Shown here in pieces: positions 2,198 to 9,760 of a DNA stretch of 21,061 nucleotides (position 1 is its first letter; each line of letters opens with the position of its first letter). The notes under the pieces are model-generated. The model was not told where the DNA came from. It saw only the letters and a program-made list of their open reading frames with translations, and did no database searches. A program made the position numbers and the translations under genes. Source of the DNA: a virus; the IMG/VR virus record IMGVR_UViG_3300046010_010348, positions 1 to 21,061 of that record; one strand, 5' to 3'.

Positions 2198-2226
2198 GTT
2201 TGATATCTTTATTATAAATATCAAAC
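2198..2226 (-). repeat. 9-bp perfect inverted repeat at gene junction
   Basis: The arms are 2198-2206 (GTTTGATAT) and 2218-2226 (ATATCAAAC), separated by 11 bases. The repeat spans the stop codon of the nuclease/ATPase gene, at 2221-2223, and ends 3 bases before the next ATG. No T-run follows on the sense strand, so it is not a standard intrinsic terminator. An RNA hairpin here could affect translation of the downstream gene or 3'-end stability. Confidence 0.5.
2213..2220 (-). promoter_or_regulatory. TATTTATA motif upstream of tail-fibre-like gene
   Basis: The sense strand reads TATTTATA 19 bases before the ATG at 2194. The same octamer or a near-match occurs in five other intergenic gaps of this window. 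A promoter role is inferred from recurrence, orientation and spacing only. Confidence 0.3.
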
Positions 2227-5200
2227 ATGATTAATCTTGCTAAATCCTTGTGTCTTGTTTACTTCAATTAAATTGTCGACCATATCTCGCATTGAATCAA
2301 CGTGTGAAATGATAATTGAAAAATCAAATTTAGTTCGGAAATATTCAAATAAATTTACTACAGAAGAAATGTGTTCTGAATCTAAACTTCCCCAACCTTC
2401 ATCGATTGCAATGAAATTAGGACGAGGTAGTGCCGAAACATTGATAAGTGCTATGCGAATTGCTAAAGATGAAATAAAACGTTCCATTCCGCTTGTTAAT
2501 TCTAATGGCCAAAAATTGTCTTCATCATATATGATATAACCATTAATGTTTTTACCATCCGTGTTCATTACCATGTTGAATTCAACAATTTGATTAAGTA
2601 CATTGTTTATTTCAGCTTCTATTTTAGGAAGAGCTTTTGTAATTAATTCATATGGAATGCCATCTCGTTTAACTGATTCTAAATAATAACCATATGCTTT
2701 GTATTCAGTTTCAAGTTGTTGATAACGTTCCAATTGTTGCATTGCCGTAGATTTTTGTGTTTTTGCTACTTCAATTGCCCCATAATTATTTTTAATTTGA
2801 TTTTGAATTGTTTTGATTTGTTCTGATATATTTGCAATTTGTTTTTTGCAAGATTCAATTTCAATGTCAATAGTTCGATTGTGTTTAATTGCCGTTTCAT
2901 TTTGGCGAAATGATTCTTGTCGTTCAACTGCCGTTTCTAATTCAGATTCTCGGGTTTGCAAATCACTTTCTAAGATTTGAAGTTGCAATTCATTGCGTTC
3001 TTTTGTAATTGACTTGGTTGCAATAGTATTGCGTAACGAGTTAAGTTGTTCTGTTTGTTCAAATACTGGGTTTAATATTTTCAATTCATTGTTTAACGTT
3101 GCAATTCTTTCTTTTAAAGAATCTAATACATTTCTATCTTGGTCAATTGTATTTTGAGCTTCGATTGCATTTCGTACGAAAACGTTAGATGTACAGTATT
3201 GACATTGCGGATCATATTCATGGTCGGCAAGGTGATTAATTTTTTCTTGTTTTGCATTTACTATCTCCTGTTGTTGGCGTAATTTTTGTAAAAGTGTATT
3301 GACTGAATGTTCTTTTGCAGAGTATTGTTTTGTTTGTTCTGTTATAGTTGGTATATCAAATTGAGCCAACGTTGATTTATGTTCACTGATAGTTGCAATC
3401 AAAGATTCTAAATCAAATTCCGCAGTTTCAATGTCTGTTTGAATTGATTCAATATGTTCAATCAATGTTGCTTCTTGTTTTTTTAATTCTTCAATATCTG
3501 GGCCATTATAAGATGTTGGTAGTTTCGTTTCAATAAATGTAACAATTTGTTCTTGAAGTGAGTTACGACGATCTTGCAATACATCTTCTTCAGTTTCCAA
3601 TGCCGTAATTGTTTCTTGGTTGTCGGTAATAATGTTATCAGAATTAATAATAATTTCAGCAAAATCCGTTTTCTTATAATCTTTTAAACGACCTGCAGTT
3701 TCTTTTATTTCATCAGCTGCGAGTTGATAAAGTTGTTCAAATACCGTAATATCTAAAAATTGTGAAAGCAAATCTTTGCGTTCTTTTTGAGACTTTTCAA
3801 TAAAGTTATTGTTATCTGCTTGAAGTGAAAATGCCGTTAAAATAAAATCATCATACGTTCCTAGGTAGCGACGTATACTTTTATTTGTATCACTTCGTTC
3901 TTCTCCGTTTAAATTTTCTGTTTCAGTATAAAAATCAACATCAACTTTTACGTGTGTTTCTTTCTTTTTATTTTGAGTACCTCGACGTTCAATTGTATAT
4001 ATGATTCCATTCATTTCAAATTTGAATAAACCCCGGAACCAAGTTTTTTTATTGTTTAATATTTCATTTGCTTTGCCTGTTTTACTACATTTATCAAATA
4101 TAGTATATGTTATTGCATCTAACAAAGACGACTTACCAGATGTGTTTGCTGCAAATAAACCGCATACATCAGATAAATTTTCAAAGTTTAACGTGTTGCC
4201 TTCACCATATGAAAACATGTTATCGAATTCAAATGATATCGGATGCCATGTTGTATGACGAATTGATTCAACTGCTGGAAGTTTAGAATTAATTGTACGG
4301 TTAATATGTCTAATTGCGTCTACTTCTTCTGCTGTTGCTTGAGGAAAATGTGAATCTATATAATCTGATAATAACGTATTTTGATATTCTACGTCTCTAA
4401 CATTACCAATAGCTAAACTAGATGATGCAGCCGTTGCACCATGATCAATCGTACGTTGAATTGTTATATCTTGTACATTGTACTTTTTACGAATAGTTGC
4501 AATTAGTTTTTTCATTCCAGCTGCACTAGTACCATTAAATTTAATTCTAATACGAGGCTTTTCTGGCATTCGGTGCGGATGTGATACAATTTTATCACCT
4601 TGTGTTTCTAAAGTAACATAACCGTAGTCATTTTCTATTTGTGTAAATTCAGCGCTTCGATTAGCAACATCCCATACAAGTATTCCATGATCTAATGCTT
4701 CTCCATGATTTTGTTGAATAAGCGATCCAGGATATGCAATTGTACGTGCATCATCTAAAAATTGTGCTGGCTTATGAATATCGCCTAACAATGTAATGTC
4801 ATGACCAGCAAATAATTCTGTTGTTACATGTTCATTTGATATTTGATAACCTATATCCGTTTTAGCAGTATTAACAGCACCATGGTGCATTGCAATTTTA
4901 TATGTAGCTGAAAATTGATCAGCTCGTATGTAATCTGCAGGTGTCTTATCGACTGCCATATGATTCCAAACACATCCACCTAATTCAAAAAGTCCATTAT
5001 CTTTTACAAAATGAATATTAGGATTTTGAATAACATCTAATACAGGACTTACTGCATCTACTCGGTGCATATTGTTAAGATTCATATCATGATTACCTAG
5101 AATAACAACGGTAGGTATTTTGAATCCATTAAAGAAATCAACTAGCATTTGAACTAGTTCCGGCGACATATCCAATTTGCTATGAACAATATCTCCTGTT

Positions 5201-5367
5201 ACAACTGCGACACTATTTTTAGTAGCGTGGGTTTCCATGTAGTCAAATAAATTTTTAAATACTTGTCGGTATTCAGTATGGCGTTTCAATGTACGAATAT
5301 GTACGTCTGAAATATGAAAAATTTTATCAATCAGTGTAATTGATGTATCAATATGTTTTATGTCCAT
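2221..5367 (-). CDS. Fused Mre11/SbcD-Rad50/SbcC recombination nuclease-ATPase (T4 gp47+gp46-like)
   Basis: One 1048-aa frame carries both halves of the Mre11-Rad50 complex. Residues 1-250 form a metallophosphoesterase with all expected metal motifs: D21-V-H23, G-D59, G91-N-H-D94, H161-H162 and G195-D-I-H198. Residues about 260-370 look like the Mre11 cap and linker. The ATPase begins near 372, with a P-loop at 406-413 (AANTSGKS), a Rad50-like Q-loop region near 510-545, long coiled coils at about 560-715 and 735-900, a zinc hook C722-x-x-C725, signature TSGMER at 958-963, Walker B IAIDE ending at E990, D-loop SLD at 994-996 and H-loop H1022. In T4 the two proteins are separate, gp47 and gp46, and process DNA ends for recombination-dependent replication. 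The ATG at 5367 overlaps the primase stop by 10 bases, suggesting coupled translation. The fusion is seen directly; equal stoichiometry is inferred. Confidence 0.93.
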   Translation of the reverse strand: MDIKHIDTSITLIDKIFHISDVHIRTLKRHTEYRQVFKNLFDYMETHATKNSVAVVTGDIVHSKLDMSPELVQMLVDFFNGFKIPTVVILGNHDMNLNNMHRVDAVSPVLDVIQNPNIHFVKDNGLFELGGCVWNHMAVDKTPADYIRADQFSATYKIAMHHGAVNTAKTDIGYQISNEHVTTELFAGHDITLLGDIHKPAQFLDDARTIAYPGSLIQQNHGEALDHGILVWDVANRSAEFTQIENDYGYVTLETQGDKIVSHPHRMPEKPRIRIKFNGTSAAGMKKLIATIRKKYNVQDITIQRTIDHGATAASSSLAIGNVRDVEYQNTLLSDYIDSHFPQATAEEVDAIRHINRTINSKLPAVESIRHTTWHPISFEFDNMFSYGEGNTLNFENLSDVCGLFAANTSGKSSLLDAITYTIFDKCSKTGKANEILNNKKTWFRGLFKFEMNGIIYTIERRGTQNKKKETHVKVDVDFYTETENLNGEERSDTNKSIRRYLGTYDDFILTAFSLQADNNNFIEKSQKERKDLLSQFLDITVFEQLYQLAADEIKETAGRLKDYKKTDFAEIIINSDNIITDNQETITALETEEDVLQDRRNSLQEQIVTFIETKLPTSYNGPDIEELKKQEATLIEHIESIQTDIETAEFDLESLIATISEHKSTLAQFDIPTITEQTKQYSAKEHSVNTLLQKLRQQQEIVNAKQEKINHLADHEYDPQCQYCTSNVFVRNAIEAQNTIDQDRNVLDSLKERIATLNNELKILNPVFEQTEQLNSLRNTIATKSITKERNELQLQILESDLQTRESELETAVERQESFRQNETAIKHNRTIDIEIESCKKQIANISEQIKTIQNQIKNNYGAIEVAKTQKSTAMQQLERYQQLETEYKAYGYYLESVKRDGIPYELITKALPKIEAEINNVLNQIVEFNMVMNTDGKNINGYIIYDEDNFWPLELTSGMERFISSLAIRIALINVSALPRPNFIAIDEGWGSLDSEHISSVVNLFEYFRTKFDFSIIISHVDSMRDMVDNLIEVNKTQGFSKINHV

Positions 5368-6302
5368 AATAATCCCATTCTGAGCTCCATGATTCGCTCA
5401 AAGGTTAAAATATCAGTATTTTCTATAATTTCCGTAATTCTTTGAAATCCTAGTTCAGATGCATCATCATCTTGCAATTCAACAAAATAAACATTAAGAC
5501 CTTCTCCAATAAATTTTTCAGCAATTGCTAATGCATTTTTTAAAGCATCTGCATCTAAACATATGTAAATGTTTTTAACGCGTTCTTCAATAATTTTCTT
5601 TTGCAATGCAGGTTGAATTATTTTTCCAAACAATGGAATTGCATTTCTTTTAACAGCAATTGCATCAAATGAACCTTCACATAAAATAATAGGTTCAGCC
5701 CAATTAATTAACATTTCAAATCCAATTATATCTTTTGAAATCTTTGGATTTTTATGTTTGAATTTATCTGCCTTATAAAATGCTCTACTAACAAAATAAT
5801 TTAATTGACCATCGCGATCGTAACTAGGAATAATTATCTTGCCGGAATATTCTCCATTTTCACAATAACCTATTCTGTATTTTAAAATATCAAAAACCGT
5901 TACACCTCTGTTTGTTAAATAGTGAATTGCATTGCGATAATCCGGCGTATTTTTTTTAATCCAAAGTGGAGCATATTCTGCAGGTAATTGAATTGTTTGA
6001 TTGGTTTTGATTTCTTTAGCATCAACCCGATAACGAGTTGATTCGATTATACGGTTAAGTTGTTCTAAACGTTCTTTAGGTAAATTTAATTGTTTAAACA
6101 ACGTGTGAATACTTTTACCTTTTTTATCAGTAATCCAACAGTGCCAAGTATAATTTCCGTTTTCATCCGGAGTACTACGAATTTCTAATTTAGGTTTATA
6201 ATGTGAAGTAAATGGAGAAAAGAATGTTATATTACCTCCGGATGTAGGCTTTCCTTTACCTAACACTGATTCCAATAATTGAAGTAATTTATGATTCTTC
6301 AT
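5358..6302 (-). CDS. DnaG-type DNA primase with TOPRIM domain (T4 gp61-like), degenerate zinc ribbon
   Basis: The 314-aa protein has the length and order of phage DnaG-type primases such as T4 gp61: an N-terminal zinc-ribbon region followed by a catalytic core. The TOPRIM core is clear, with E209 in ILCEGSFDA, D250 and D252 in CLDADA, and an acidic DDD at 278-280. Such primases make short RNA primers for the lagging strand with the replicative helicase. The N-terminal region (27-70) keeps the spacing and flanking residues of a CxxC...CxxC ribbon, but reads SPFT at 29-32 and CWIT at 55-58, so only C55 of the four expected ligands remains. The start follows a 187-base AT-rich gap and has no clear Shine-Dalgarno sequence. 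Its last codons overlap the start of the nuclease/ATPase gene. Enzyme class is well supported; activity without the zinc site is uncertain. Confidence 0.85.
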   Translation of the reverse strand: MKNHKLLQLLESVLGKGKPTSGGNITFFSPFTSHYKPKLEIRSTPDENGNYTWHCWITDKKGKSIHTLFKQLNLPKERLEQLNRIIESTRYRVDAKEIKTNQTIQLPAEYAPLWIKKNTPDYRNAIHYLTNRGVTVFDILKYRIGYCENGEYSGKIIIPSYDRDGQLNYFVSRAFYKADKFKHKNPKISKDIIGFEMLINWAEPIILCEGSFDAIAVKRNAIPLFGKIIQPALQKKIIEERVKNIYICLDADALKNALAIAEKFIGEGLNVYFVELQDDDASELGFQRITEIIENTDILTFERIMELRMGLLWT

Positions 6303-6489
6303 ATTAATATAATAATAAAATTCTGTAAGGAATCCAATTAATAATTAATATTAATATAAATAATATATGTTTGACACATACATTACATTACTGATCAAAC
6401 GATCGAATTAATAAATAATTCAATCTATTAATAAAATAAATTTCATTAATATTTCATGAATATATTAAAAATAATTTAAAAATCAAACC
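6303..6489. other. AT-rich intergenic spacer before the primase gene
   Basis: This is the longest gene-free stretch in the window (187 bases), with very few G or C. It holds a TATTTATA sense-strand motif (6355-6362), a small inverted repeat TATGT/ACATA with a 5-base loop (6366-6380), and GAATTA/TAATTC around a 5-base loop at about 6404-6420. No credible ORF, RNA gene or strong terminator is seen. It may hold promoter signals for the primase-nuclease pair or an AT-rich unwinding region, but nothing decides between these. Confidence 0.5.
6355..6362 (-). promoter_or_regulatory. TATTTATA motif in the primase leader
   Basis: The sense strand reads TATTTATA 53 bases before the primase ATG at 6302, farther away than the other copies. 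The surroundings are almost pure A+T, so a chance match is more likely here. Confidence 0.2.
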
Positions 6490-6972
6490 TTATTCAAAGA
6501 AACGTTTAACATTTATCGGACTTTCACCGGATTTTATGCATTCCAACAACCATTCTTCAGGTATATCTTTCTTAGCAACATGATTAATTCCTAATTTTAA
6601 TGCATATTCAGCATATGTAGTTTTGCTTGTTTTTGACAAACGTTGATTAGGATTTTGAAATACCATACGAATATCAACACCAGGATTTGACTGTAATACA
6701 TGTTTCATTTTAGTACGATCTGCTGTAGTCCATCGTCCTTTTGTTTCAACAAACATGAATTGGCCATTGCGTTTTGTAAATACGAAGTCAGGCGTATATT
6801 TTGCTTTACGCTCAGGTACTATATAATTTATGATTTCTGTTTCATATTTCAAATCATATGCAGTAGTTTTTATCCAATCTGCAACTGTATGTTCTAATCC
6901 AGATTTATATCCGTACTTAAGTGCCGTAGCTCGTTTTGAGTTGCCCGAGCTGTGAAAATGATTTTTTGCCAT
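6490..6972 (-). CDS. T7 endonuclease I-like Holliday junction resolvase
   Basis: The 160-aa protein aligns by eye with phage T7 endonuclease I (gp3) along most of its length. It has KSGLE with catalytic E27, YTPDF with D62, and FVETKGRW with E76 and K78, the four active-site residues of this PD-(D/E)XK family. The C-terminal half keeps IRMVFQNP, a Lys-rich stretch, TYAEYALKLGI and IPEEWL, matching the T7 RIVF...SYGEFCEKHGI...IPAEW order. The family cleaves four-way junctions and other branched DNA as a dimer, clearing recombination intermediates before packaging. It lies 24 bases after the 730-aa protein gene and upstream of the primase and the Mre11-Rad50 fusion, consistent with a DNA-processing module. 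No Shine-Dalgarno sequence is evident before the ATG. T4 itself uses an unrelated resolvase, endonuclease VII. Confidence 0.93.
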   Translation of the reverse strand: MAKNHFHSSGNSKRATALKYGYKSGLEHTVADWIKTTAYDLKYETEIINYIVPERKAKYTPDFVFTKRNGQFMFVETKGRWTTADRTKMKHVLQSNPGVDIRMVFQNPNQRLSKTSKTTYAEYALKLGINHVAKKDIPEEWLLECIKSGESPINVKRFFE

Positions 6973-6996: not shown

Positions 6997-9189
6997 TTAC
7001 TTATTACTCAAAACATCTCTATATACACCACTTTTAATAGATGTAGTTACTGACCAAAATGAAGATATTGCTCGTATTGCTGCTAATAATGTCACTTTAA
7101 ATGCAGGACCTGCTGCAGCTTTTGTTACATATATTTTTTCTGTTACTGTTTTACCAAACAATTTTGCTTGTAAACGTTTGCCGCCATCAGACCAACCACT
7201 TCCTGTACCTTGTAATATTGTAGCACCTTTTACTTTAACTATAATAGTTCCATCGTCGCGTACATGCAAAAATGCATTTTGATCAAATGCTCCTGGACTT
7301 CTTTTTAATAAAAGAGTTGCATCAAACCACCAAACTTTAAGTTTACTATCATATGATGCTGTTACATTTAATGCTTTAGCAACGTCTTGTATAAAACGTT
7401 TAGGTGCTGGCTTTTGTGCTTGTGTACTAGTTTTTGTCGATGTCTTCGTTGTTGATTTAGTAGTAGTAGCTTTTGGTTTTAAAGATGGTTGTTCGGGAAG
7501 ATTTCTAAAACTTAATCTATTAATACCGATTTGTAGATTTAACGTTTTATCTTTCCATGCTCCTGCATTGGCGCGAATTGCTTGAAATAATGTATCATAT
7601 ATTGCATCGCCAGCTGGCAGTTTGCTAGTATATGTTCCAGTTTTCGTTATTAATTTTCTACCACCATCAGACCATCCACTACCAATACCTTGTACAATTT
7701 GTTTACCTTCTGATGTAGCAGAAATAGTACCATCATCACGCATATGTAACAATCCATCTACATCCATTTTTCCCGGACCTCGTACAATACGTATTTCTAA
7801 ATCAATATAGTATACTTTTAACTTTTCGCTGTAATGTATACTACCACCTGTTTCTTGAGCTATTTTATCAATACCGCGGCGATGACCAAAAAGTGTTGCA
7901 GTATCAGATTTTTTTGTTTTTTCCGGTGCCTTAGCTTTTTCCGGCTCAGTCGTTTTTGGAACAGTTTTAGTTGATGTAGATGTTGTTGTTTTAGGAACTT
8001 CTTTTTTTGTAGTAGTAACAGGCGTTGGAGTAGTAACAGCTGAAACATCAAACCCTGAAAAATCTTGTTCTCGTAAATTAAGTTCAAGAAGTATAGATTT
8101 CAATAAAAGTTTAGATTCCGATTTAATTGGAGATAATAATCTATCAATCAATTGTTCTGTTACGTCTGTTGAATTTTGTACTTTAAAAAATCCTTTATTC
8201 AAATCACGTATTACAGCTTTTGATTTATTTCCCCAAATGCCATCAACTGGTTTTGCAATATTGGCAAAATCTTTAACAGATGGTATTATTTCTTTTAATG
8301 TATATTGTTTTCCATCTACCATAATCTTACTGTTTATTACGCGTTGCATAATAAGCTGTTGGAAGACCTTTGCAGTTTCGGCATCTGGCGTTGTTTTATT
8401 AATTTCTGGTAATAATGCTAGTAATTCTTCTTTAGATAACGCTTTATCTTCACCTTTATCCGTTTTAAATGACAATTTTTCTAAACTAGTTACTTGTTTT
8501 AATACTTTATCATCTTTTTTAACTTCATCATCTTTTTTATCAATAACTACCGAATCATCTTTTTTAGAATCATCTGAAGATCCATCTTTTTTAGAATCAT
8601 CTGAAGATCCATCTTTTTTGACAACCACAATTTCTTTTTCATCACTACTAGGAGAATCTACAATTGTATTATTAAGTATGTCATTTATTTGTTTGATCAA
8701 TGTAGCACCAGTTCCCAATGTTTCAGGAATTCTTTCAGCCTTAGGATCGATAGCTGAAACAAAATCACTTACTTTGATAATATCGCTACTTCCAACTTTA
8801 CCCGATGATTTTGGTGTTGTTTTAAATAAAAATTCAATTTCTTCCCATTTTTGCTTTCCTTTATCAACGCCAACTAATTTTCGTTTCGGATAAATTAATA
8901 CATCAGTTACAAGACGTCGTTCTGCTTTTTTACGGTCATCTCCTATTATATAATACCAATCGCCATTTGCAAAACTAGATGCTGGACCATATTGTGTATT
9001 TTTAGGAGATGTTAAAACATACATGACGTCATGTTCAAAATCCGGAGGAGATTTTTCGTCTCTAGTAGCTTTAAATTTAATTCGAAATACACCTGCCATT
9101 AAGTCAGCTGCTTTTGAAATAATTGCATTTGGTGATTTTTTTAATATATAATTTACATCTTCTGTTAATAAGTTTTTTAACTTGATCAT
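6997..9189 (-). CDS. Large multidomain virion-associated protein with duplicated C-terminal domain
   Basis: This 730-aa protein matches no family I can name. It starts MIKLKNLLTE, the same pattern as the upstream gene. Residues 11-170 form a globular region. Residues 175-230 are a Lys/Asp/Ser linker with two 9-residue repeats. Near 314-327, PVDGIWGNKSKAVI resembles the core of PG_binding_1 peptidoglycan-binding domains. A Thr/Pro/Lys linker covers 385-430. Two homologous domains follow at about 434-553 and 598-718, sharing LH[MV]RDDGTI and GSGWSDGG, joined by another Thr/Lys-rich linker. Internal L-x-E sites occur at 367-369 and 372-374. The start is supported by AGG six bases before the ATG. 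Context between virion genes suggests a structural or internal head protein; cell-wall binding is possible but rests on one short motif. Confidence 0.75.
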   Translation of the reverse strand: MIKLKNLLTEDVNYILKKSPNAIISKAADLMAGVFRIKFKATRDEKSPPDFEHDVMYVLTSPKNTQYGPASSFANGDWYYIIGDDRKKAERRLVTDVLIYPKRKLVGVDKGKQKWEEIEFLFKTTPKSSGKVGSSDIIKVSDFVSAIDPKAERIPETLGTGATLIKQINDILNNTIVDSPSSDEKEIVVVKKDGSSDDSKKDGSSDDSKKDDSVVIDKKDDEVKKDDKVLKQVTSLEKLSFKTDKGEDKALSKEELLALLPEINKTTPDAETAKVFQQLIMQRVINSKIMVDGKQYTLKEIIPSVKDFANIAKPVDGIWGNKSKAVIRDLNKGFFKVQNSTDVTEQLIDRLLSPIKSESKLLLKSILLELNLREQDFSGFDVSAVTTPTPVTTTKKEVPKTTTSTSTKTVPKTTEPEKAKAPEKTKKSDTATLFGHRRGIDKIAQETGGSIHYSEKLKVYYIDLEIRIVRGPGKMDVDGLLHMRDDGTISATSEGKQIVQGIGSGWSDGGRKLITKTGTYTSKLPAGDAIYDTLFQAIRANAGAWKDKTLNLQIGINRLSFRNLPEQPSLKPKATTTKSTTKTSTKTSTQAQKPAPKRFIQDVAKALNVTASYDSKLKVWWFDATLLLKRSPGAFDQNAFLHVRDDGTIIVKVKGATILQGTGSGWSDGGKRLQAKLFGKTVTEKIYVTKAAAGPAFKVTLLAAIRAISSFWSVTTSIKSGVYRDVLSNK
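8557..8619. repeat. 27-bp tandem direct repeat, about 2.3 copies
   Basis: Two identical 27-bp units lie at 8557-8583 and 8584-8610, with a further 9-base partial copy to 8619. They encode repeated SSDDSKKDG-type nonapeptides in the acidic-basic linker of the 730-aa protein. The repeat is in frame, so copy-number change would only lengthen or shorten the linker. Confidence 0.9.
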
Positions 9190-9214: not shown

Positions 9215-9760
9215 TCACCAATCTACTAATACGAGCTTATTATTCCACAACATCATGTTCGATGCACTAAAATCTAAATCTAAATCAAAATCATCGATAC
9301 CTATTTTTGCTACATCTCTTTGTAAAGCTCGAATAAAATTAACTAGTTTAATATCCATATTACGTGCTCCATCTGCATCCAAAAAATCAAATATTGAAAC
9401 TTCTCCGCCTTCGGATCTAGCAAATTGTTTGAATTGTTCCATAAATGCATCAATATTCATACGATCTTGTTCTGGCAATGTTTCTGCATTTGACATAATA
9501 TACATTTGTTCGCGATCGTTAACATAATATACTGGGATAAAACAAGTAAATTCCGATGCTCTATTTACTATAATTTTAGCAACTTCATACTCATCACGCT
9601 CGGTTGTAATTTTAAAAACTTTATCTTCTCCATCAATTTCATAAACACGACCATTATCACCCCCGCCTATTAAACGGAATGATTTATTGCGTATTTTATC
9701 TAATAAACGAGTAATTTCTGAATCAGATAATTCACGTAAAAGTTGTTTTAGTCGTATCAT
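9215..9760 (-). CDS. Minimal protein-kinase-like / APH-like protein
   Basis: The 181-aa protein has the landmarks of a kinase-like fold. A glycine-rich loop IGGGDNGRVYEI (31-42) is followed by a strand ending VFKI with K50 as the ATP-anchoring Lys, a hinge-like MYIMSNAE near 87-94, a catalytic-loop pattern D163-FSAS-N168, and LVLVD180-W at the extreme C-terminus, equivalent to the DFG/IDW metal site. The His of HxD is replaced by D161. The chain stops one residue after D180, so the substrate-binding helices of normal kinases are absent. The downstream gap is only 25 bases, so no missing C-terminus follows. It begins MIRLKQLLRE, matching the next gene. Its ATG overlaps the upstream stop (ATGA). 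Phosphorylation of a host or virion target is possible; a pseudokinase is equally possible. Confidence 0.7.
   Translation of the reverse strand: MIRLKQLLRELSDSEITRLLDKIRNKSFRLIGGGDNGRVYEIDGEDKVFKITTERDEYEVAKIIVNRASEFTCFIPVYYVNDREQMYIMSNAETLPEQDRMNIDAFMEQFKQFARSEGGEVSIFDFLDADGARNMDIKLVNFIRALQRDVAKIGIDDFDLDLDFSASNMMLWNNKLVLVDW

Follow-up and report, generated by a model that had tools for sequence, protein, structure and literature searches.

A fused SbcD/Mre11-SbcC/Rad50 gene in a virus contig and its relatives among phages

Does a single phage-borne gene encode both the nuclease and the ATPase of an Mre11-Rad50 (SbcDC) enzyme and, if so, what would such a chain do? The question is raised by the gene at 2221-5367, on the minus strand, of a 21,061-nucleotide stretch of viral DNA (IMG/VR record IMGVR_UViG_3300046010_010348, positions 1 to 21,061; here called the window). 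A first-pass annotation, made from the letters alone, had proposed that an SbcD/Mre11 nuclease and an SbcC/Rad50 ATPase are fused here, and knew of no described phage example. We find that the gene is a genuine, intact fusion and that it belongs to an already known kind of protein, described in 2011 (Yoshida, Claverie and Ogata, PMC3175470; cited throughout from passages of that paper). Very probably it makes a single-chain Mre11-Rad50 enzyme, of the kind represented by Mimivirus R555, for end resection in recombination-dependent phage replication.

A nuclease and an ATPase in one frame

The gene is a single open frame that runs from an ATG start over 1048 residues with zero internal stops, as the first-pass annotation had read it, without giving the strand; when the window was resampled 300 times with a Markov model, no open frame was longer than 193 codons. 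In Pfam, the protein matched Metallophos at residues 15-200 (E 6e-10) and AAA_23 at residues 382-645 (E 8e-6; 27.2 bits, the cut-off being 27), each of which passed its cut-off, and SMC_N at residues 386-1041, which fell short of its own. The ATPase half matched the SbcC-like PHROG family phrog_77 (E 1e-52), and the NCBIfam models sbcc (E 4e-23) and sbcd (E 2e-7) were hit far under their curated cut-offs. A search of PDB sequences with a profile of 57 fusion members found SbcC and Rad50 chains (6s6v_C, E 2e-30) as well as chains of Mre11/SbcD (3qg5_C, E 2e-14). The parts of the gene were drawn from these matches, from a conservation alignment of 210 rows (the window counted once) and from an AlphaFold model built on 57 sequences, from whose secondary structure the domain borders were read (mean predicted local distance difference test score, pLDDT, 83.5).

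2221..5367, minus strand: fused SbcD/Mre11-SbcC/Rad50 gene, 1048 residues (open frame; Metallophos and AAA_23; phrog_77)
4639..5325, minus strand: nuclease domain, residues 15-243 (Metallophos; conservation in 210 rows; structure match to 7dog_A)
4450..4638, minus strand: capping-like domain, residues about 244-306 (model secondary structure; 7dog_A)
4393..4449, minus strand: variable, low-confidence loop, residues 307-325 (pLDDT below 50 at 308-318)
4288..4392, minus strand: two helices, residues 326-340 and 346-360, a candidate helix-loop-helix Rad50-binding element (AlphaFold model)
4252..4287, minus strand: interdomain linker, residues 361-372 (linker length count)
3745..4251, minus strand: Rad50 head, N-terminal half, residues 373-541 (Walker A AANTSGKS; Q-loop Q516)
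3223..3744, minus strand: coiled-coil arm A, residues 542-715 (model)
3193..3204, minus strand: zinc-hook motif C722-Q-Y-C725, CxxC (both Cys in 210 of 210 rows)
2671..3183, minus strand: coiled-coil arm B, residues 729-899 (model)
2224..2658, minus strand: Rad50 head, C-terminal half, residues 904-1048 (conservation of S959, G960, D989, E990 and H1022)

The modelled order is thus nuclease, capping-like domain, two helices, short linker and Rad50 head, whose first strand begins at residue 373. In the VIA structure comparison, residues 12-305 matched SbcD 7dog_A (Z 24.8, root-mean-square deviation (rmsd) 3.3, 271 aligned), a PDB entry entitled as the nuclease and capping domain of SbcD, and residues 374-1048 matched the SbcC/Rad50 structure 7yzo_D (Z 30.1, rmsd 3.1, 350 aligned). 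Among the VIA rows shown, matches to SbcD/Mre11 chains stop at residues 304-315, short of the two helices. We name these a candidate Rad50-binding helix-loop-helix from their predicted secondary structure and their position, which is that of the Rad50-binding helix-loop-helix in Mre11; they may dock on the coiled coil, and Q329 is kept in 207, N356 in 205 and I355 in 193 of 210 rows. The fusion had been expected to remove the normal free C-terminus of the nuclease; the capping-like domain and the two helices are kept, and it is the free end after them that is lost.

Active-site residues are present in both halves. In the nuclease the motif residues are D21, H23, D59, H62, N92, H93, H162, D196 and H198, of which D59, H93, H162, D196 and H198 are invariant in all 210 rows; D21 (208, plus 2 gaps), N92 (209) and H62 (207) are nearly so. 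The alignment holds the metallophosphoesterase active-site residues, with Asp196 standing for the motif V His in all rows and H23 kept in 178. The motifs of the ABC head and the CxxC hook are present in the alignment and in VIA: G411, K412, C722, C725, S959, G960, D989, E990 and H1022 are invariant, Q516 is kept in 208 rows, and the C-terminal half carries the signature LTSGMER, Walker B FIAIDE, the D-loop and H1022. The statement that all motifs of both families are there, and the CxxC hook with them, was accordingly borne out, save that motif V has Asp for His and that Walker A begins with Ala (AANTSGKS).

Spread of the join and selection across it

We collected 236 loci, the window included: the best 80 of 371 relatives from a viral-contig scan with the window protein, 68 loci and 78 loci (the latter from the best 80 of 113 relatives) from scans with two more distant members, three genome contigs, one locus found with PTm1 as query and five deposited phages. 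The nuclease is followed by the ATPase in one frame in 210 of them, which include the window, two near copies (L002 and L003) and PTm1 twice; 23 of the 236 are partial at a contig end and 3 are otherwise incomplete. Chains with both domains in this order, for which the first-pass annotation had suggested a search, are thus found in viral contigs and deposited phages alike, one of them (L145) at 31% identity to the window. The three loci from genome contigs (L087-L089) lie on metagenome-assembled genome contigs of 4-17 kb and may be cellular or viral.

An assembly or sequencing artefact, in which an indel or chimera joined two neighbouring genes, would also give a fused frame; in its favour, the window is a virus record of 21 kb that comes with no statement of completeness. 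The first-pass annotation had pointed to the region of residues 250-375 (window 4243-4620), and to related contigs with two separate genes, as the places where such an error would come to light. The halves occur as two neighbouring genes in none of the 236 loci, for which two of the scans kept the best 80 of 371 and of 113 relatives, the join is in frame in 210 of them, and deposited phage genomes (Mel-JY01, PTm1 and phiXF1) have a matching join. Length and selection tell the same way. With four divergent rows (L084, L085, L086 and L236) set aside, linker 361-372 is 12 residues long in all but 2 of 206 rows, where it is 13, and the ratio of non-synonymous to synonymous substitution rates (dN/dS) across cap and linker is 0.07. 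Because independent contigs carry the identical in-frame join, we rejected the artefact reading, which is vanishingly improbable.

The dN/dS estimates came from 88 pairs, 85-97% identical, taken among the window and those rows of L004-L081 that are full length; pairs lacking a usable dS were dropped region by region, leaving 82 for cap and linker (residues 265-374) and 68 for the hook. Values were 0.09 for the nuclease (1-264), 0.04 for the first part of the ATPase head (375-560) and 0.05 for the second (881-1048), 0.21 and 0.22 for the coils (561-712 and 731-880) and 0.12 for the hook. Both the nuclease and the ATPase halves are under strong purifying selection.

A genuine frame could still yield an ordinary two-subunit complex if a phage or host protease cut the whole chain near residues 307-372. 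The loop at 307-325, variable in length (19-24 residues in 206 rows) and modelled with low confidence, would offer a place for such a cut; the capping-like domain before it spans 62-68 residues in the same rows. Against cleavage, purifying selection acts on the region and 204 of 206 rows share one length of linker 361-372; judged by length and selection, we consider this outcome very unlikely. The 1:1 stoichiometry and the tether between nuclease and ATPase, both foreseen in the first-pass annotation, would follow from the covalent link provided that the chain stays uncut.

The sole break between the halves among the 236 loci is an insertion in L083, on the 484-kb phage LR756508. About 0.9 kb (4701-5615) interrupts the fusion directly after the GDIHKR motif and holds a 304-residue frame with a TnsA-like endonuclease N-terminal match (E 6e-6). 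Its appearance suggests an inserted endonuclease or a mobile intron; an Rfam search for an intron in L083 returned nothing at gathering score. A close relative of the window, L025 (1-7195), has a lone in-frame stop in the coiled coil, an error or a pseudogene, and the fusion of L142 runs into stops near its contig end.

Known fusions and two-gene relatives

The absence of a described phage example, as supposed at first, did not hold. Fusions of Mre11 with Rad50 were described by Yoshida et al. 2011 from Mimivirus and the Bacillus phage 0305phi8-36 as well as from bacteria, plasmids and eukaryotes (PMC3175470). The same passages describe R555 homologues on Global Ocean Sampling (GOS) scaffolds, beside phage-type primases and T7-type gp3 endonucleases, some of them proposed as phage; they estimate the linker of the fusions at 9-12 residues and note that long environmental sequences confirming the fusion were few (PMC3175470). 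The gene order, linker length and signature residues of the window and its relatives fit this picture (PMC3175470). In R555, a His in GDxxH is accompanied by an Asp replacing His206 of P. furiosus (PMC3175470); the window has GDIVH and GDIH at these places, with H62 in 207 and D196 in 210 of 210 rows.

Like R555, the window protein places the nuclease first and the ATPase second in one chain, and it resembles R555-type fusions in the size of its capping-like and candidate helix-loop-helix segment and in a linker inside the 9-12 estimate; R555, compared here by the paper's description, is longer (1351 against 1048 residues) (PMC3175470). Window-type fusions, unlike R555, lie on phage contigs behind a primase-like gene, often with endonuclease I. 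The fusion of 0305phi8-36 (A7KV18), likewise from a phage, is described as having neither the capping/helix-loop-helix segment nor one P-loop NTPase segment (PMC3175470); the window protein has counterparts of both, the helix-loop-helix as a candidate. In the viral structure library, ranks 1-5 went to chains of Tupanvirus (E 1e-72), Harvfovirus, Yasminevirus, Terrestrivirus and Catovirus (969-1389 residues) and ranks 8 and 9 also to giant-virus chains; phage pT24 stood at rank 10 and PTm1 at rank 14.

Six deposited phages carry a one-gene fusion with the domain order of the window: Microcystis phage Mel-JY01 (1066 residues), Tenacibaculum phages PTm1 (1318) and pT24 (1310), Sphingomonas phage PAU (1301), Chryseobacterium phage MA9V-1 (1326) and Xanthomonas phage phiXF1 (951). 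They are deposited under the names 'AAA domain containing protein', 'metallo-phosphoesterase', 'DNA repair' and 'hypothetical protein'. Both Pfam halves were found in Mel-JY01 and phiXF1, and in PAU with SMC_N below its cut-off; in PTm1 the whole-protein Pfam scan gave the ATPase half and, at E 0.01, no Metallophos, which passed its cut-off in the genome search, and the pT24 and MA9V-1 fusions were judged by motifs and alignment to PTm1. Identity to the window is 40% for Mel-JY01, 20% for phiXF1 and 19% for PTm1. Mel-JY01 resembles the window in gene order, with a primase-like gene upstream, and differs in having a GIY-YIG gene in the place of endonuclease I and a gene on the scale of 58 codons between primase and fusion; no primase relative was found beside the phiXF1 and PTm1 fusions within the flanks examined. 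The phage records hint at habitat through a Microcystis host for Mel-JY01, seawater for PTm1 and source lines for PAU, pT24 and MA9V-1; the virus contigs bear sample numbers in place of habitats.

Although 503 of 50,697 deposited phage records matched at E 1e-3, just 4 cover 80% of the query, the bulk of the matches falling on the ATPase half. In viral contigs, the PTm1 query gave a single locus, 100% identical, and the search for phiXF1 relatives gave 9 pattern matches, none confirmed. Among plasmids, 33 records matched, all with less than 80% of the query covered, and the organism tally showed neither Clostridium nor Deferribacter; the plasmid fusions of the 2011 paper were therefore not recovered by this search. 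Titles and abstract starts in the open-access literature gave no recognisable report of a phage fusion after 2011. Passages of PMC7824862 give SbcC and SbcD as a near-universal pair in jumbo phages, and SbcD-SbcC fusion goes unmentioned in them.

The annotated nuclease/ATPase pairs T4 gp47/gp46, T5 D12/D13, SPO1 gp21.3/gp21.9 and E. coli SbcD/SbcC are each two separate genes, whereas the window has one frame, so that the contrast with T4, T5 and bacteria first drawn for this locus stands. SPO1, 278BB001 and Bromius have a primase gene near SbcC, as in the window. Motif V cuts across the division. The window reads GDIH, where T4 gp47, SPO1 gp21.3 and 278BB001 SbcD read GHxH and T. maritima Mre11 reads GHIH; among 12 fusions compared, 11 have GDxH. 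Because the twelfth, PAU, has GHIH while the separate T5 and Thalassa D12 nucleases have GDLH, the GDxH of T5 D12 being shared with the window, the motif V Asp, as judged from these sequences, marks nuclease lineage more than fusion as such.

In quick trees that set 21 selected fused rows beside separate rows, 9 for the nuclease and 10 for the ATPase, 20 of the 21 fused rows grouped together, with Shimodaira-Hasegawa-like approximate likelihood ratio test (SH-aLRT) values of 96 and 95, respectively. In both trees phiXF1 stands apart, in forks that hold T5-type rows, so that two changes are needed, with long-branch warnings. A single clade of all 21 fused rows was not rejected by the approximately unbiased (AU) test (p 0.41 for the nuclease, 0.23 for the ATPase). 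The place of phiXF1 is unsure given the long branches, and the fusion may have arisen once or more than once.

Gene neighbourhood and the proposed role

Two neighbouring genes of the window point in the same direction as the fusion.

5358..6302, minus strand: DNA primase-like gene (phrog_47, E 1e-28)
6490..6972, minus strand: T7-type endonuclease I, same direction as the fusion (Phage_endo_I, E 6e-33)

The end of the primase-like gene overlaps the start of the fusion by 10 bases. Of the 216 loci whose upstream flank is 1000 bases or longer, 212 have a primase-like relative at most about 270 bases upstream of the fusion; L084, L085, L086 and L236 are the four that lack it. Where the upstream flank reaches 2000 bases or more, 122 of 192 loci have an endonuclease I relative, and the gene that follows the fusion downstream in the window has a relative in 172 of 204 loci. 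The window also carries a baseplate wedge gene (phrog_219), as expected for a tailed phage. The recombination and replication genes at 2221-6972 adjoin tail and baseplate genes; in Bacillus phage G the SbcC gene likewise comes after virion genes.

Two further proteins of the window drew our attention. Those encoded at 9215-9760 (181 residues) and 6997-9189 (730 residues) have similar starts (MIRLKQLLRE and MIKLKNLLTE), perhaps an N-terminal signal, and neither had a Pfam or PHROG match at E 0.01. By eye, the shorter, with its glycine-rich start and DLDFSASNMM close to its end, suggests a divergent protein-kinase-like fold, and the longer is seemingly two copies of one domain, each with GSGWSDGG[RK].

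The fusion protein also has matches among defence proteins, and the gene might on that account be a Lamassu-type structural maintenance of chromosomes (SMC) nuclease and not a replication enzyme. PADLOC LmuB matched the window protein (E 1e-10) and Mel-JY01 (E 1e-25), in the latter case level with NCBIfam sbcc (E 4e-25), and LmuACB structures were among the Foldseek matches. Matches to the SbcC family phrog_77 are stronger (E 1e-52 for the window, E 1e-45 for Mel-JY01), although the libraries differ in size and the comparison is rough; the window protein also has its sbcc match at E 4e-23, the gene has its own nuclease domain, and a primase-like gene is its near-constant neighbour. Judged by these matches, the nuclease domain and the primase-like neighbour, a defence role of this type is extremely unlikely.

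We therefore return to the single-chain Mre11-Rad50 enzyme, whose end-resection role is suggested by SbcCD and T4 gp46/47. Two chains would associate by way of the nuclease dimer and of the ATP-bound heads to give the usual M2R2 head, each nuclease being tied beforehand to its own ATPase. ATP binding and hydrolysis would open the nuclease to DNA ends or hairpins, and the hook would join the coiled coils, bridging DNA. The resected 3' end would be handed to RecA/UvsX to support repair and recombination-dependent replication, a part that has been proposed for T4 gp46/gp47, which the fusion would replace. The tether would ensure one nuclease per ATPase and their co-synthesis from one gene. Consistent with this role, the fusion is the sole strong phrog_77 match in each of 21 virus contigs (10 of 45-160 kb and 11 of 101-369 kb), and a search for the RecA family was positive in 12 of 14 records.

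Several observations weigh against this reading. Weak extra phrog_77 matches occur in 2 of the 21 contigs (G017, 14.5 bits; G021, 24.1 bits) and twice in Mel-JY01 (20.6 and 15.9 bits), and three extra Metallophos frames of 219-247 residues, one of which falls below the cut-off, occur in 2 of the 10 contigs of 45-160 kb. Two records, the 735-kb LR756501 among them, break the only-copy pattern, and the absence of separate SbcC/SbcD is not final, as no contig is certified complete. The search results for the remaining 2 of 14 records lack the RecA family. With a predicted template modelling score (pTM) of 0.43 for the AlphaFold model, the placement of the domains is tentative, as is the way in which the two helices would dock on the coiled coil, and the viral structure matches reach TM-scores of just 0.2-0.6. 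The literature passages covered hold no biochemistry for any such fused chain. At the active site, position V is Asp in all 210 rows, and the motif I His (H23) is kept in 178, with Gln in 30 (L088 is one example) and gaps in 2; these two replacements make the metal chemistry uncertain. Gln at the motif I His is also seen in the PTm1, PAU, pT24 and MA9V-1 fusions.

In LR756501, a 1202-residue fused frame is accompanied by a second, stronger SbcC match of 618 residues (670999-672753, stops read through). In the 595-kb LR756511 the frames are separate, one of 348 codons and another of 683, with about 870 bases between them, the second falling near T4 gp46 in the ATPase tree.

The replacements at motifs I and V would also suit a nuclease half that is catalytically weak or metal-altered, in a protein that mainly tethers DNA ends. 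Asp is also able to bind metal, and the remaining motif residues checked are invariant or nearly so, the nuclease has a dN/dS of 0.09, and GDxH also occurs in T5 D12, a recombination endonuclease subunit by annotation. We regard a mainly tethering protein as very unlikely. Within the single-chain reading, we entertain as a speculative extension an obligate machine in which the fixed 12-residue junction would limit movement between nuclease and head, giving fewer states than SbcCD, with a metal site retuned by Asp196 and a specialisation for phage end resection; this is doubtful.

Collectively, the long contigs support the 2011 proposal, which had rested on short metagenomic scaffolds, that many R555-like fusions are phage-borne (PMC3175470). 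Several deposited phages hold the fused enzyme under names that give one half or none, and a compact single-chain Mre11-Rad50 is now on offer for structural work. In the long contigs the fusion is the one clear SbcC-like gene and stands behind a primase-like gene, and it is probably central to the DNA metabolism of the phages that carry it.

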